Below, piece after piece: positions 35,770-63,707 of a stretch of DNA of 64,000 bases. Below the pieces are notes generated by a model. It was given only the letters and a program-made list of their open reading frames with translations, made no database searches and was not told the DNA's origin. The translations under genes and the position numbers were made by a program. Within the stretch, counting starts at the first letter, position 1. Each line of letters begins with the position of its first letter. Origin of the DNA: Salinibacter sp. 10B (GTDB lineage: Bacteria > Bacteroidota > Rhodothermia > Rhodothermales > Salinibacteraceae); contig NZ_MQWC01000004.1 of the NCBI RefSeq assembly GCF_002954405.1, positions 718,065 through 782,064 on the forward strand. The letters are read 5' to 3'.

Positions 35770-35994
35770 ATCACCATCCGACCGCTCCGACGGTAGTTCG
35801 ATTCGTAGATCATGCGGGCAAGAACACGGAAGCCTACTCCCGCTGCCCTAGCAATTGTTTCTATTCTCCCCTGGTAGGTCCCTCCGTCGGTTCGCTACTC
35901 CCCTCCGTTGCTCCACGTCTCATTACGAATCGACCGTCATGATTTGTACCTTTTCCTCGCACATCATCCTTCTCCTCAAACGCCTCCTTTCCGA

Positions 35995-36831
35995 ATGAGC
36001 GCGGACGCGTCGATTATTACCCTCACCACCGACTTCGGCACCGAGGACGCGTACGTCCCTGCCATGAAGGGGACCATGCTCTCCATTGCGCCCGAAGCCC
36101 GACTCGTGGACGTCACCCACGAGATCGCCCCCCAAGACGTCATGGAGTCGGCGTTTGTCTTGCAGTCGGCCCAGCCGTATTTTCCCGACGGCACCATACA
36201 CCTAGTCGTCGTAGATCCGGGAGTTGGAACCGAGCGGCGGGCCGTCGCCATTCGCGAGGATGGACACTGGTATGTGGGCCCCGACAACGGACTCTTCCCG
36301 TTGGTGATCGAGCAGGACCCGGACGCCATCGTGGAGCTGGACAATCCTGAGATGTGGCGCACCTCGTCCCCAAGCTCCACCTTCCACGGCCGGGATATTT
36401 TTGCCCCTGCCGCTGCTCATCTGGCTGCCGGTCGCTCACTAGAAGAATTGGGCTCCCCCGTTACGTCCCTGGAGCCCCTCCGCTGGGCAGAACCTTTTAT
36501 CGAGTCCAATTCGATAGAGGGCTGGATTACTCACGTTGACCACTTCGGCAACTGCATCACCAACGTGCGCCGCTCCACTCTCCTCGACATGTTGGAACTC
36601 GACGAGGAGGAGTCCCTCGATGAATCCTCGCTCTCGTTGGAGGTATATGCTGGGAATACGGTGCTCGATTCGATCCACTCAACCTATGGGGACGTCTCGG
36701 GAGAGGATCCACTGCTGCTGTTCGGGAGTACCGGATTCCTGGAGGTGGCCGTGAACGGGGGGAACGCCGCAGAACTGTTGGACATTCGAAAGGGCGATTC
36801 CATCAAGATCGCTCTCTCGCAGTCGGCCTGA
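35995..36831 (+). CDS. S-adenosyl-L-methionine hydrolase, adenosine-forming (DUF62/SAM_HAT family)
   Basis: 278 residues from ATG 35995. Family enzymes use an activated water to split SAM into adenosine and methionine; relatives are halogenases. N-terminal TLTTDFGTEDAYVPAMKGTM carries the conserved Asp; VDVTHEIAPQDVMESAFVLQSAQPYFPDGTIHLVVVDPGVGT is the core; GPDNGLF and SSTFHGRDIFAPAAAHLA follow; the C-terminal domain contains HVDHFGNCITNV. The frame extends upstream to 35908 but without homology. A fluorinase or chlorinase would carry a longer loop near residues 90-110, not seen here. A terminator-like hairpin follows the stop. Confidence 0.9.
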   Translation: MSADASIITLTTDFGTEDAYVPAMKGTMLSIAPEARLVDVTHEIAPQDVMESAFVLQSAQPYFPDGTIHLVVVDPGVGTERRAVAIREDGHWYVGPDNGLFPLVIEQDPDAIVELDNPEMWRTSSPSSTFHGRDIFAPAAAHLAAGRSLEELGSPVTSLEPLRWAEPFIESNSIEGWITHVDHFGNCITNVRRSTLLDMLELDEEESLDESSLSLEVYAGNTVLDSIHSTYGDVSGEDPLLLFGSTGFLEVAVNGGNAAELLDIRKGDSIKIALSQSA

Positions 36832-36850
36832 ACGCTCGCGAATGTGGGGG

Positions 36851-36876
36851 CACTCCGCCAGCCGCAGTGTTTTTTT
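36851..36876 (+). terminator. probable terminator after the SAM hydrolase gene
   Basis: Arms CACTCCG and CGCAGTG pair at six of seven positions around the loop CCAGC, and seven T follow directly. The stem is short, so this is a weak intrinsic terminator 20 bases after the stop. Confidence 0.5.
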
Positions 36877-37429
36877 GCGTGCGACCGGAGTGTTGCTATC
36901 TGTAACTCTTCAGGAAGGCCAGTGGAGTGGCCCCCTCCTGTCCGGTCGTTTCGAGTGGAAGGAAGCCGTCGCCCGACCGGAGCCTTTTCCCTGAACCAAA
37001 TGTCCCGAACAGGCACGGACTGAGGGCTTCCCTGCACCGACCTGCCCCCCATCGACCTCGAACAACTACTCCGACAAATGTGAACTCGATCGTTGCCAGT
37101 CGACTCTCGGATCGTTTGGTCCTCGTGCACTGATGGCTCCCCGCCGGCTCCAGGAACCGGAGAAAATCTCGTTGCGCTATCGACGATGCCAGGCCAGTCA
37201 GTCGCGCCCCCCGACGAGTACAGCGTCCCCCGTGATGTTCCCGGTGGGCTCGATGCCGAAGAGCCCCCCGTTTGTGGCGCCGCTGGAGTCCAACGGCGCT
37301 ACAGAAGTGATTTCGGACGGAATCGCTACACGTACGCGGCGCGTCGTGACTCCCCACGTTCAAACTACTGACAGTTGACATCGCACTAGGCAGCCTGCCG
37401 CAATCTCACTCTCTTCAGTTGGACTCCCT
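36877..37429. other. intergenic region without a supported gene
   Basis: About 550 bp between the SAM hydrolase terminator and the sigma-like membrane protein. An antisense frame (to 37381) lacks recognisable residues. The region contains the first copy of a short hairpin repeat (37277-37299). The promoter of the downstream gene must lie near 37380, but no clear element stands out. Confidence 0.45.
37277..37299. repeat. short intergenic hairpin repeat, copy 1
   Basis: Arms GCGCCG and CGGCGC surround CTGGAGTCCAA. A nearly identical hairpin (one base different in the loop) lies at 40264-40296, also intergenic. No T-run follows on either strand. Confidence 0.6.
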
Positions 37430-38680
37430 ATGGCTTCCTCGACTGCCTCCTCCTCTCTGGCCCGTCACGTACAGGCCCTCTATCCCCTGGCCCGTGTACT
37501 CGCCGGCGATAATGAGGCCGCTGCGCTCGTTGAGGACGTATACGACCACGCGGCGAACATGCCGCCCGACGAGCGACCCAGTGACGAGCGGTCCTGGCTG
37601 TTCCGTCTCCTGATCGACCGCCGGCACGGGTCCCTCTCGTCGACCGATGCAGAAATCCCCTCCGGAACCGAAACTTCTTTCACGGACGACCCCTTTCGGC
37701 GAGAGGTAGCCGAGCAGACGGCCAAACGCAAACTGCCGGTGGCCTTTGCGGCCTGCTCTCTCCACGAGCGCGTGATTCTTGCTCTCGACGTGCTGGCTTC
37801 TCCCTCCGACACAGCACTTGCCACGGCCCTGGACACAACGGAAGCCAACGCCCGCACCACTCGCGACCAGGCCCGATCGGCCCTCCGCGCCTCTCTTCGA
37901 GACGTGCTGAACGGCCCCGAGCGGATGCTCGTCGATGTGGCCCTGCCGGACAAAGCTCTCCGTGCCCACCTGCGCACGCTACTGGAGGACCGATTTCAGC
38001 CTACGCCCTCTTCCCTGCGCGCAACGGTTCGCGACATTTTGGAGCGGGCCCGCGCGAAACGGGAGGCCGACGCTGCGGACTCGGCGAACGCCTCGACGGG
38101 CTCCTTGCTGTCTACAATTTCCAACTGGCACTCCGTCCGCCCCCTCGTCTGGACGCTTGCCCTGGTCGGCGTCTTTGCCGTCGGCATCGCCGGATGGATG
38201 TATCTCTCCGCCTCCCCCCCATCGCCGTCCTCTCCGCAAAGCATTGTGGACTTGTCCGTGCAACGGGCTTCGGAGGTGACACCCGCACAGCCCGTCACGA
38301 GTGCCGATGAAGCCGAAACGTACATCCGGGCAACCTGGGGCCGTCGCGTGTCCGTCCCCTCGATCAAAAATGCCTCCCTGCGGAGCGTGAGTCGCTTACA
38401 ACCGGGGAGAAACGTCACCGTACCGGTCCTCCTGTACGACGACCCGCCGGAAACAACCCGCATTGCCGTCTACGCTTTCAGCTACGCACTACTCGACCGC
38501 CTCGGGAGTCGGGGCACTCTCGACCGTGCACTCCGGACAAAATTGGCCACCAACCAATCTCTGCTCGACGAGACGCATGACGATCAGAGCGTGGTCCTGT
38601 GGCGCCAAAAGGACGATATCTTCGTAGCCGTGGCCCCGCATCTCGCCCCGTCCTCCCTCCGAGGCCGGATCCAGCTTTGA
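37430..38680 (+). CDS. sigma-70-like protein with membrane anchor and extracytoplasmic domain
   Basis: 416 residues. Residues 14-64 resemble region 2 of ECF sigma factors (LYPLARVLAGDNEAAALVEDVYDHA, then SWLFRLLIDRR), and 101-158 resemble region 4 (LPVAFAACSLHERVILALDVL, ALATALDTTEANARTTRDQARSALRASL). A helical stretch (160-235), one membrane helix (about 237-259) and a Pro/Ser linker follow. The C-terminal 140 residues would lie outside the cytoplasm and have no recognised domain. The conserved -10-binding aromatic residues of region 2 are not obvious, so it may not start transcription; an anti-sigma-like or structural role is possible. It has no linked anti-sigma gene. Convergent with the histidine kinase. 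Confidence 0.75.
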   Translation: MASSTASSSLARHVQALYPLARVLAGDNEAAALVEDVYDHAANMPPDERPSDERSWLFRLLIDRRHGSLSSTDAEIPSGTETSFTDDPFRREVAEQTAKRKLPVAFAACSLHERVILALDVLASPSDTALATALDTTEANARTTRDQARSALRASLRDVLNGPERMLVDVALPDKALRAHLRTLLEDRFQPTPSSLRATVRDILERARAKREADAADSANASTGSLLSTISNWHSVRPLVWTLALVGVFAVGIAGWMYLSASPPSPSSPQSIVDLSVQRASEVTPAQPVTSADEAETYIRATWGRRVSVPSIKNASLRSVSRLQPGRNVTVPVLLYDDPPETTRIAVYAFSYALLDRLGSRGTLDRALRTKLATNQSLLDETHDDQSVVLWRQKDDIFVAVAPHLAPSSLRGRIQL

Positions 38681-38745
38681 TACAGCAGCCGGGACGAGTT
38701 GCGTCCCCCCTCTGGCCCCTTCTCCTTCTCCTCCAGCAGAGCTCA

Positions 38746-40137
38746 TCACGAATCCGGTAGCTCCACCCGAAAGGTAGAGCCCTCGCCTACGGTCGACTCG
38801 ACGAGTTCAAGCGTGCCGCCGTGGTACGTTTCGACAACTCGGCGCGCGAGACTGAGTCCGAGTCCCCACCCCCGCTTTTTCGTGCTGAAGCCCGGCCGAA
38901 AGACGTTTCCCCACTGCCGGCGTTCAATGCCGGCTCCGGTGTCCTCCACCTCCACGTAGACCCGGCCGTCCTCCCGTCCGCCGGTAACGGCAATGCGGCC
39001 GGTCTCGTCCTGAATTGCGTCGAGCGCGTTCTTGAGCAGATTCTCCATCACCCAGGCAAAAAGCTCCTGATTCACCTCCACCTCCAGCGCTGACGGCAAA
39101 TCTACAGCGAGTTCCACGTCCTGCCCCCGGTGCGGCAACCGACGCCGGATGTAGGTGGCCGACTCCACAACGATGGGCACAAGGTTGCGCCGTTCCAGCT
39201 TCGGTTGGGAGCCGATGTCGGAGAACCGATTGGCGATGCGTCGGAGCCGTTCCACGTCGTTTTCGATCTCGTCGAGTGCCTCCGCTCGTTGCTCCTCCTC
39301 CAGCTCCGACGACCGCAGCATCTGAATCCATCCCATCAGGCTGGACAGCGGGGTGCCGAGCTGATGGGCTGCCTCTCGGGCCATCCCCATCCAGAGGCTG
39401 CTCTGCTCATTCCGCCGGATGTAGGAAAAGCCGAGGTAGCCCACCAGAATGAAGAGCCCCACGAACAGAAACTGCACCCACGGAAAGATGCGAAGCTCCT
39501 GGATGAGCCAGGACTCATCGTAGTACAGGTACTGGGTGAATTGCGCTCCCGACCGTGCGGTGATGCTCTCGTCTGCCGTCGAAAGATCAACCCGAATCGG
39601 AATGGGCTCAAACGTAGCGGCCATCTCCTCCGTACGGCGACGGAGCTGTCGGAGTGCCACCGAATCCTTCGTCGCCAGAGACGACAGGGTGTCGGGAACC
39701 TCTACGTTGCGCCAGAAGCGTGGATGCCGGCCGGTCGAGTCCGTTATGATGGCCGGGATGCCAAACCGATTCGGCTCGATGATCTCGTTGAGAATAAAAT
39801 TGAGCTCATTCGTCGGCGGCATGGTCTGTGCCCAGTCGACGGCTTGCTGGTACCGTGCCAGCTGTTCGACCGGCGGCCGGGCGGGGGGATCGCCCTGCTC
39901 CACCCGACGGAGATAATCTTCCAGGGCCCGGAAGTCACTCAGGTGGGGATTAACGGACTGTCGCTGCGCCTTCACCACCTCGGCGTGGGCATCGGCCCAG
40001 AGCTGAATGAGGGCCTGCTCCCGCTCACGGAGGCGGTCCACCAGACGCTGAGTGTAGAGGAGCGACGCAACGGCAATGACGCCCGCCAGCACAATGAGTC
40101 CAAGCTTCAGGCGGACGGACCAGCGATACGTGTTCAT
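38746..40137 (-). CDS. orphan sensor histidine kinase
   Basis: 463 residues from ATG 40137. Membrane helix 11-27, an extracytoplasmic sensor region (28-218), and a second helix (220-240). The phosphoacceptor is H258 in AREAAHQLGTPLSSLMGW; the usual Glu after His is Gln. Catalytic domain: N-box ENLLKNALDAIQ, G1 DTGAGIERRQWGNVF, F-box RPGFSTKKRGWGLGLSLARRVVE. It should autophosphorylate in response to an envelope signal. No response regulator gene adjoins it, so the partner is elsewhere. The frame is open upstream to 40257, but the upstream part is Gly/Pro-rich without homology and overlaps a hairpin region. Confidence 0.93.
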   Translation of the reverse strand: MNTYRWSVRLKLGLIVLAGVIAVASLLYTQRLVDRLREREQALIQLWADAHAEVVKAQRQSVNPHLSDFRALEDYLRRVEQGDPPARPPVEQLARYQQAVDWAQTMPPTNELNFILNEIIEPNRFGIPAIITDSTGRHPRFWRNVEVPDTLSSLATKDSVALRQLRRRTEEMAATFEPIPIRVDLSTADESITARSGAQFTQYLYYDESWLIQELRIFPWVQFLFVGLFILVGYLGFSYIRRNEQSSLWMGMAREAAHQLGTPLSSLMGWIQMLRSSELEEEQRAEALDEIENDVERLRRIANRFSDIGSQPKLERRNLVPIVVESATYIRRRLPHRGQDVELAVDLPSALEVEVNQELFAWVMENLLKNALDAIQDETGRIAVTGGREDGRVYVEVEDTGAGIERRQWGNVFRPGFSTKKRGWGLGLSLARRVVETYHGGTLELVESTVGEGSTFRVELPDS

Positions 40138-40263
40138 GAAAGAAGGTCCTGTTCGTCGTTCCGAAAACAACCACGGGACGGCTTCCCAAGGACCAGACCC
40201 GCACTGGTTCCCACCCCCAGACGCCCCACGCGCTCCAGACGGCCCAACGGGGGACAATACATA

Positions 40264-63633: not shown

Positions 63634-63707
63634 CCTGCCCGGGAGGATTCGAACCCCCGGCCTCAGCCTCCGCAAGGCTGCGCTCTGTCCGACTGAGCTA
63701 CGGGCAG
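63634..63707 (-). tRNA. tRNA-Arg (anticodon GCG)
   Basis: 74 bases on the minus strand fold into a cloverleaf: acceptor CTGCCCG/CGGGCAG, D stem GCTC/GAGC, anticodon stem CAGCC/GGCTG with loop TTGCGGA (anticodon GCG, codons CGC/CGU), T arm GGGGG/CCTCC with loop TTCGAAT, discriminator G. Most bacteria read these codons with ACG (inosine); GCG is uncommon. CCA is not encoded. A terminator follows. Confidence 0.92.

Follow-up and report, generated by a model that had tools for sequence, protein, structure and literature searches.

An open reading frame of Salinibacter sp. 10B raises the question of what a sigma factor, if it is one, is doing in a membrane protein. The frame lies at positions 37430–38680 (forward strand) of the window, the 64,000-nucleotide stretch of DNA analysed here, in which we confirmed it as 416 amino acids from an ATG. 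The original prediction had seen in its product segments resembling sigma regions 2 and 4, a membrane helix and an outer domain in one chain, either a tethered sigma or a decayed sigma used as a membrane sensor, and had found it odd that there was no neighbouring anti-sigma gene. There is indeed no separate anti-sigma gene adjoining the frame: by Pfam, its flanks encode a SAM hydroxide adenosyltransferase and a histidine kinase. The features of the locus are:

37430..38680, +: sigma/anti-sigma fusion gene, 416-aa product
37436..37630, +: sigma2-like domain, residues 3–67 (AlphaFold2 model, fold matches), its region 2.2 core-binding motif lacking D and Q
37691..37906, +: sigma4-like domain, residues 88–159 (model, fold matches); members have, on average, no net positive charge on the recognition helix
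37913..38101, +: residues 162–224, linker and probable degenerate anti-sigma domain (aligned as part of 161–416); P-x-x-L-R motif present, zinc ligands absent
38138..38209, +: single membrane helix, residues 237–260 (model, topology)
38243..38677, +: outer domain, its core (297–416) closest in fold, among solved structures, to the C-terminal domain of RseB/MucB
35908..36831, +: SAM hydroxide adenosyltransferase, conserved upstream neighbour, a separate protein (Pfam, synteny)
38746..40257, −: sensor histidine kinase (HisKA + HATPase_c), convergent neighbour (Pfam)

Between the enzyme and the fusion gene lie 598 bases (36832–37429), which gave no match to a known RNA in Rfam at the gathering threshold; in most relatives the two genes overlap or nearly do. 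Two tRNA genes, both on the minus strand, stand at 662–735 and 63634–63707 of the window.

Fold of the N-terminal half

Searched alone against Pfam, NCBIfam and the PDB, the window protein returned no firm sigma match: Pfam gave none, and NCBIfam gave weak ones only (SigX, 0.0035; another sigma model, 0.018). Matches to DUF1995, acVLRF1 and replication factor C (E 0.02–0.9) were taken as chance, and a first search of contigs with this single protein as query found nothing. Relatives collected into a family profile made the relationship visible. Comparing the N-terminal halves (residues 1–160) of 31 relatives with 14 ECF sigmas of the same genome by hhalign gave a probability of 98.3, an E-value of 2.4e-14 and a score of 89 over 143 columns; 50 column-shuffled versions of the profile scored at most 15.7, and a reversed alignment scored 16.5. 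The window's sigma half alone against the ECFs reached a probability of 77 (E 2.1e-5), while two small subsets of family group f13, each taken alone, were not recognised as sigma (probability 3.3 and 2.6). A family model built without the protein's own family group gave the cytoplasmic part of the window protein 82 bits (one sequence, E 2.7e-27), where an ECF model gave 15.6. At E ≤ 0.1, Pfam recognised Sigma70_r4_2 in 11 of the 31 members (best 2e-7) and Sigma70_r2 in two (best 0.017), and the sigma-half profile matched the solved structures of the ECF sigma SigE (2.1e-12) and of the PhyR sigma-like domain (3.2e-5).

Structure prediction points the same way. An AlphaFold2 model from 16 sequences (mean pLDDT 84, pTM 0.41) has helices at residues 3–67, 88–159 and 162–224, a membrane helix at 237–260 and an alpha/beta outer domain at 272–413. 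Its sigma2 stretch matches 5uxx (Z 9.8, rmsd 2.6 over 77 residues) and PhyR 3t0y (Z 7.7, rmsd 2.6 over 68 residues), and its sigma4 stretch matches 3hug, SigL region 4 (Z 8.0, rmsd 4.2 over 77 residues). Superposed on whole sigmas the full model deviates by an rmsd of 13–19, presumably because sigma2 and sigma4 sit in a different relative placement, and the best sigma found by Foldseek with the full model has an E-value of only 1.5e-3 (probability 1.00); the sequence evidence for a sigma fold is stronger than the evidence from Foldseek or the whole model. Profile comparison and structure prediction, the two computational checks that the original prediction had named, both bear out its sigma-like segments: the N-terminal half has the sigma2 and sigma4 domains of an ECF sigma, in fold and in sequence profile, and this fold and its relationships are well supported.

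Topology, outer domain and origin of the chain

Lysine and arginine together average 3.65 in the 17 residues before the membrane helix and 0.87 in the 17 after it, with more before than after in 28 of 31 members; a sigma half predicted inside and an outer domain predicted outside fit the positive-inside rule. The layout read from the letters alone, with sigma-like segments, membrane helix and outer domain in one chain, is confirmed.

The outer domain, about 145 residues long, is modelled confidently by itself (pLDDT 91.7, pTM 0.88). Its six best fold matches are all RseB/MucB C-terminal domains (Z 6.8–7.5, rmsd 3.0–3.2 over 89–91 residues; the closest Z 7.5, rmsd 3.0 over 90 residues), and the next match, to another protein, drops to Z 5.1. 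Since a Z below 8 may mean a common arrangement only, and Foldseek gives RseB/MucB a probability of 1.00 but an E-value of 5e-3, we regard these as the closest fold rather than as proven kin. By sequence, the outer domain has no match among solved structures (best E 0.4), RseB/MucB included, and RseB differs in being a separate periplasmic protein that binds RseA, according to the portion of the source cited (PMC4598750).

Where the chain came from is suggested by other proteins that carry the same outer domain, among them transmembrane class-I (zf-HC2) anti-sigmas from further families and classes of the phylum. Its profile has matches in 58 of 394 genomes of the phylum, and we read 16 loci outside the main set: five in family groups f16, f29 and f54, ten in f17, f18 and f19, and one in f14. 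In f16, f29 and f54, which lie outside the order, the outer domain at all five loci ends an anti-sigma whose gene comes directly after one for a canonical ECF sigma and runs in the same direction, the two open frames overlapping or standing at most 71 bases apart; the three of these anti-sigmas that were scanned all carry zf-HC2 (1.8e-12, 6.3e-10 and 9.1e-6). At the ten loci of f17–f19 the domain ends a protein that is anti-sigma-like by alignment, with no separate ECF match within the stretch read; by eye, these proteins (L149–L155, L160–L162) lack HxxxCxxC. The SAM hydroxide adenosyltransferase was found at none of these 15 loci (all but that of f14) within the stretch read.

Family residues 161–416 align with the 15 outer-domain proteins from end to end (probability 99.7, E 1.3e-26, 247 columns). 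The alignment runs through linker, membrane helix and outer domain; it also takes in the anti-sigma domain's second half, opening a gap close to the zinc ligands. Residues 161–216 alone give no significant match to the anti-sigmas (probability 3), so the assignment of that part as anti-sigma rests on its continuity with the rest. The family thus shares with transmembrane class-I (zf-HC2) anti-sigmas a membrane helix and a common outer domain, and differs from those of f16, f29 and f54, which are separate genes following an ECF sigma and retain zinc ligands, in being fused and having lost them: the HxxxCxxC ligands of the ZAS subgroup are absent, residues 161–236 being free of cysteine in 29 of 31 members and holding a single one in the other two, and zf-HC2 is not among the Pfam families matched by the 31 members. 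On the sigma side, the five partner ECFs of these anti-sigmas rank first to fifth of 19 ECFs against the family's sigma-half profile (56–61 bits, the next at 52.7). As a five-sequence set they score 92.8, and 30 mixed sets of five other ECFs score 58–94, two of them slightly below or above 92.8; with similar scores reached by mixed sets, the result from the 19-ECF panel is supportive, not conclusive.

Taken together, these comparisons are best explained by an ECF sigma having fused with its own anti-sigma, both now lying in a single membrane-spanning chain. This also removes what had seemed odd about the neighbourhood: no anti-sigma gene stands next to the frame because the anti-sigma seems to make up the C-terminal half of this very protein.

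Polymerase contacts and selection

Is the fused sigma a working one? The contact of sigma2 with the β′ coiled coil is described as lying mainly in region 2.2 (PMC4598750). In the 31 members its D is present in four and its Q in four, and both together in none; the 14 ECFs of the same genome have D in 12 and Q in all 14, and the partner ECFs have both in five of five. The promoter-contacting helices have likewise lost the positive charge of a functional ECF sigma: mean net charge is 0.00 in the region 2.4 helix, against +3.64 in the 14 same-genome ECFs (the segments compared being slightly unequal, averaging 19.8 and 23.0 residues), and −0.03 in the recognition helix, against +4.07. The acidity usual in halophile proteins does not explain the lost charge, because the reference ECFs are encoded in the same genome. 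Lost charge and a lost motif are proxies for lost contact.

These losses bear first on the possibility that the protein is a working sigma tethered to the membrane and freed by regulated proteolysis, which has precedent. The sections cited describe IutY of Pseudomonas putida (ECF243) as a sigma/anti-sigma hybrid with a cytoplasmic ECF sigma and a periplasmic anti-sigma part (PMC5411451), and ECF48, ECF52 and ECF53 of the Actinobacteria as sigmas fused to an anti-sigma-like membrane extension (PMC8999054); in the text cited, ECF52 is exclusive to Actinobacteria and its Streptomyces member SCO4117 regulates genes (PMC5826349). The window protein arranges its parts likewise, running from sigma through anti-sigma region and membrane helix to outer domain. 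Like IutY it joins a cytoplasmic ECF sigma domain to a periplasmic part across the membrane, and like the actinobacterial proteins it carries an anti-sigma-like membrane extension. The IutY sigma, however, becomes active after cleavage by Prc and RseP in iron cell-surface signalling, whereas the window's sigma half lacks the contact features; and the ECF48, ECF52 and ECF53 extensions have a zinc finger, with a carbohydrate-binding domain in ECF52, whereas this family has no zinc ligands and a different outer domain. With the region 2.2 D and Q together in none of 31 members while all five partner-type ECFs keep the motif, with neither DNA-facing helix net positive on average, and with no zinc-finger anti-sigma domain to hold a sigma off, release of an active sigma as in IutY, or as proposed for ECF52, seems improbable here.

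Polymerase binding may instead have been retained in part. The sigma4-like half, the better recognised of the two in Pfam and a fold match to SigL region 4, might still contact the polymerase, for instance at the β flap, and bring the polymerase or a regulator of it to the membrane without recognising a promoter. Such flap binding is putative, however, and both D and Q are lost from region 2.2, the main interface between sigma2 and core; we think this improbable too.

The sigma half has nonetheless been kept. Its dN/dS is 0.07–0.34 in 12 of 14 pairs, those with dS of at least 0.3, although several pairs share one species and one of the 12 values rests on a dS of 2.4, near saturation, and the 12 values cannot therefore count as 12 separate clean tests; the remaining two close pairs give 0.43 and 0.80 at dS 0.04 and 0.02. 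Between the window protein and the relative closest to it in these pairs, conservation is 79% in the sigma part and 60% in the membrane helix plus outer domain; across the 14 pairs the outer part is the better conserved in nine. The sigma half is under purifying selection in most of the pairs compared. Vestigial decay, which lineages without a sigma half bring to mind, is rejected on dN/dS for the window protein and most pairs; it may apply to f13, whose sigma halves are strongly eroded. Between the two forms in which the original prediction was put, a decayed sigma fits better than a tethered one, the region 2.2 motif and the DNA-facing charge having gone; what does not fit the word is that selection maintains the domain in most pairs. 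Nor is the architecture as unusual as was claimed: the part of the literature cited already holds tethered sigma/anti-sigma fusions in IutY and ECF48, ECF52 and ECF53 (PMC8999054). A sigma half that is eroded and yet maintained within such a fusion does appear new. Among the matches listed in the open-access literature, no title or abstract opening describes the family.

Distribution and possible function

Relatives of the window protein (E ≤ 0.001) occur in 86 of 114 genomes of one order, Rhodothermales, across which the fusion family is found, and we read the loci of 69 of these 86 genomes. A sigma-like half is present in 50 of the 67 genomes with a readable outer domain, in nine family groups, as called at the lax threshold of E < 0.001 for one sequence with a model leaving out the protein's own family group. 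The 17 genomes without the call comprise four whole groups (three genomes in f9, five in f12, four in f15 and one in f14), one weak f13 case and three with the sigma part in another frame. In f9, f12, f14 and f15 the outer part is thus present and the sigma half absent, an absence that we infer to be loss; mapped on a phylogeny of the adjacent enzyme with 75 rows, the three states need four changes, with the sigma-less groups in three places, states having been set per family group rather than row by row and the deep branches being weak. A further group, f3, has the gene in none of 16 genomes and no outer-domain match near the enzyme, which is present in 11 of 13 genomes searched.

Several of these loci show details of their own. 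In f9 (L044, L047, L050) a proline-rich stretch before the membrane helix stands in place of the sigma half. In f14 (L068, L156) a different, shorter N-terminus with, by eye, a helix-turn-helix-like stretch precedes the membrane helix and outer domain, and the ECF model gives L068 only 3.9 bits. At L031 (G066), L036/L080 (G068) and L049/L086 (G035, Roseithermus) the sigma and outer parts lie in different frames; the cause may be gene disruption or an error in sequencing, or the two parts may truly be made as separate products. Downstream frames at some f3 loci resemble, by eye, the histidine kinase read in reverse, as would be expected if the gene had been lost from this spot.

The neighbourhood is also conserved. 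Of the 67 loci of the order with room for it, 66 have the SAM hydroxide adenosyltransferase upstream and in the same orientation (two further loci end at the gene), and a convergent histidine kinase was found in 54 of the 66 loci with room for one; the order of enzyme, fusion gene and convergent kinase (35908–40257 in the window; L001–L070) is kept across most of the order. The sole locus with room and no enzyme, L058 of f1, has other open reading frames before the gene, one of which resembles, by eye, the gamma subunit of ATP synthase.

This distribution lends weight to a reading in which the outer domain does the work, linked to the enzyme or to the envelope, and the sigma half is a cytoplasmic anchor or scaffold or binds something other than a sigma partner. 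The outer domain persists beside the enzyme without the sigma half in f9, f12 and f15, the enzyme is an almost constant neighbour, and the outer part is more often the better conserved; the sigma-less groups, with f3, which lacks the gene altogether, mean that the outer domain may carry the main function. A dispensable anchor, however, needs neither the low dN/dS of the sigma half in most pairs nor its presence in nine family groups, and f3 keeps the enzyme though the gene is gone, so the enzyme does not need the fusion gene. We hold this reading to be unlikely, though a serious contender.

What we favour, tentatively and at a little short of even chances, is that the protein is not an active sigma but a membrane-anchored sigma mimic descended from a fused operon of ECF sigma and transmembrane class-I anti-sigma. 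The fold, the fusion origin, the loss of contact features, the purifying selection and the distribution are its computed support; the binding of a partner by the sigma surface, the control of that binding by the outer domain and the identity of the partner are parts that we infer. Under such a scheme, the operon would have become one open reading frame. In its product a sigma fold in the cytoplasm would be followed by the shrunken remains of an anti-sigma domain, a single membrane helix and a sensor domain in the periplasm; that fold would lack residues for core RNA polymerase or promoter DNA and yet remain under purifying selection. A change sensed by the outer domain might alter how the remnant anti-sigma helices cover the sigma-like surface; once uncovered, that surface could capture a sigma-binding partner, most simply an anti-sigma factor, and a true sigma elsewhere would then be set free.

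The model for such titration is PhyR, whose promoter- and core-binding regions have degenerated and which nevertheless titrates the anti-sigma NepR, according to the portion of the source cited (PMC8103513). Both PhyR and the window family keep a full sigma2–sigma4 fold with degenerate core and promoter contacts; PhyR, however, is a response regulator acting on NepR, whereas the window family has a membrane anchor and no receiver domain. One member finds its best solved structure in the PhyR sigma-like domain (9.7e-7), whose aligned segment, by eye, is likewise without D and Q, and 11 of the 31 members are matched by the PhyR model of NCBIfam (best 2.2e-13); the match of L033 covers profile positions 4–138 of 258 at 50.6 bits, the cut-off being 240. 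Membership of the PhyR family was rejected: the receiver domain is missing, the chain ending instead in a membrane helix and outer domain, and NepR is missing too, found in none of 113 genomes of the order by a search whose control was positive in Caulobacter. Above its cut-off the PhyR model matched nothing in 15 genomes, what it returned being mostly the part of the profile taken for the receiver domain. The fuller proposal, that after the fusion selection produced, independently of PhyR, a polymerase-blind anchored mimic which passes on a signal from the periplasm when it captures an anti-sigma or another protein that binds sigmas, is possible, and we advance it with somewhat more reserve than the mimic itself.

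At this locus, then, a regulatory pair seems to have been caught in changing its use: a sigma has been joined to its inhibitor, has lost the features for contacting polymerase, and has kept its fold. Relatives with two genes, with the fusion, with the outer half only and with the gene gone form a series of stages. If the protein is a mimic, sigma mimicry would not be peculiar to the alphaproteobacterial PhyR system; it would have arisen independently, without a receiver domain, and a sigma together with its cognate anti-sigma could supply the parts for one-chain sensors.
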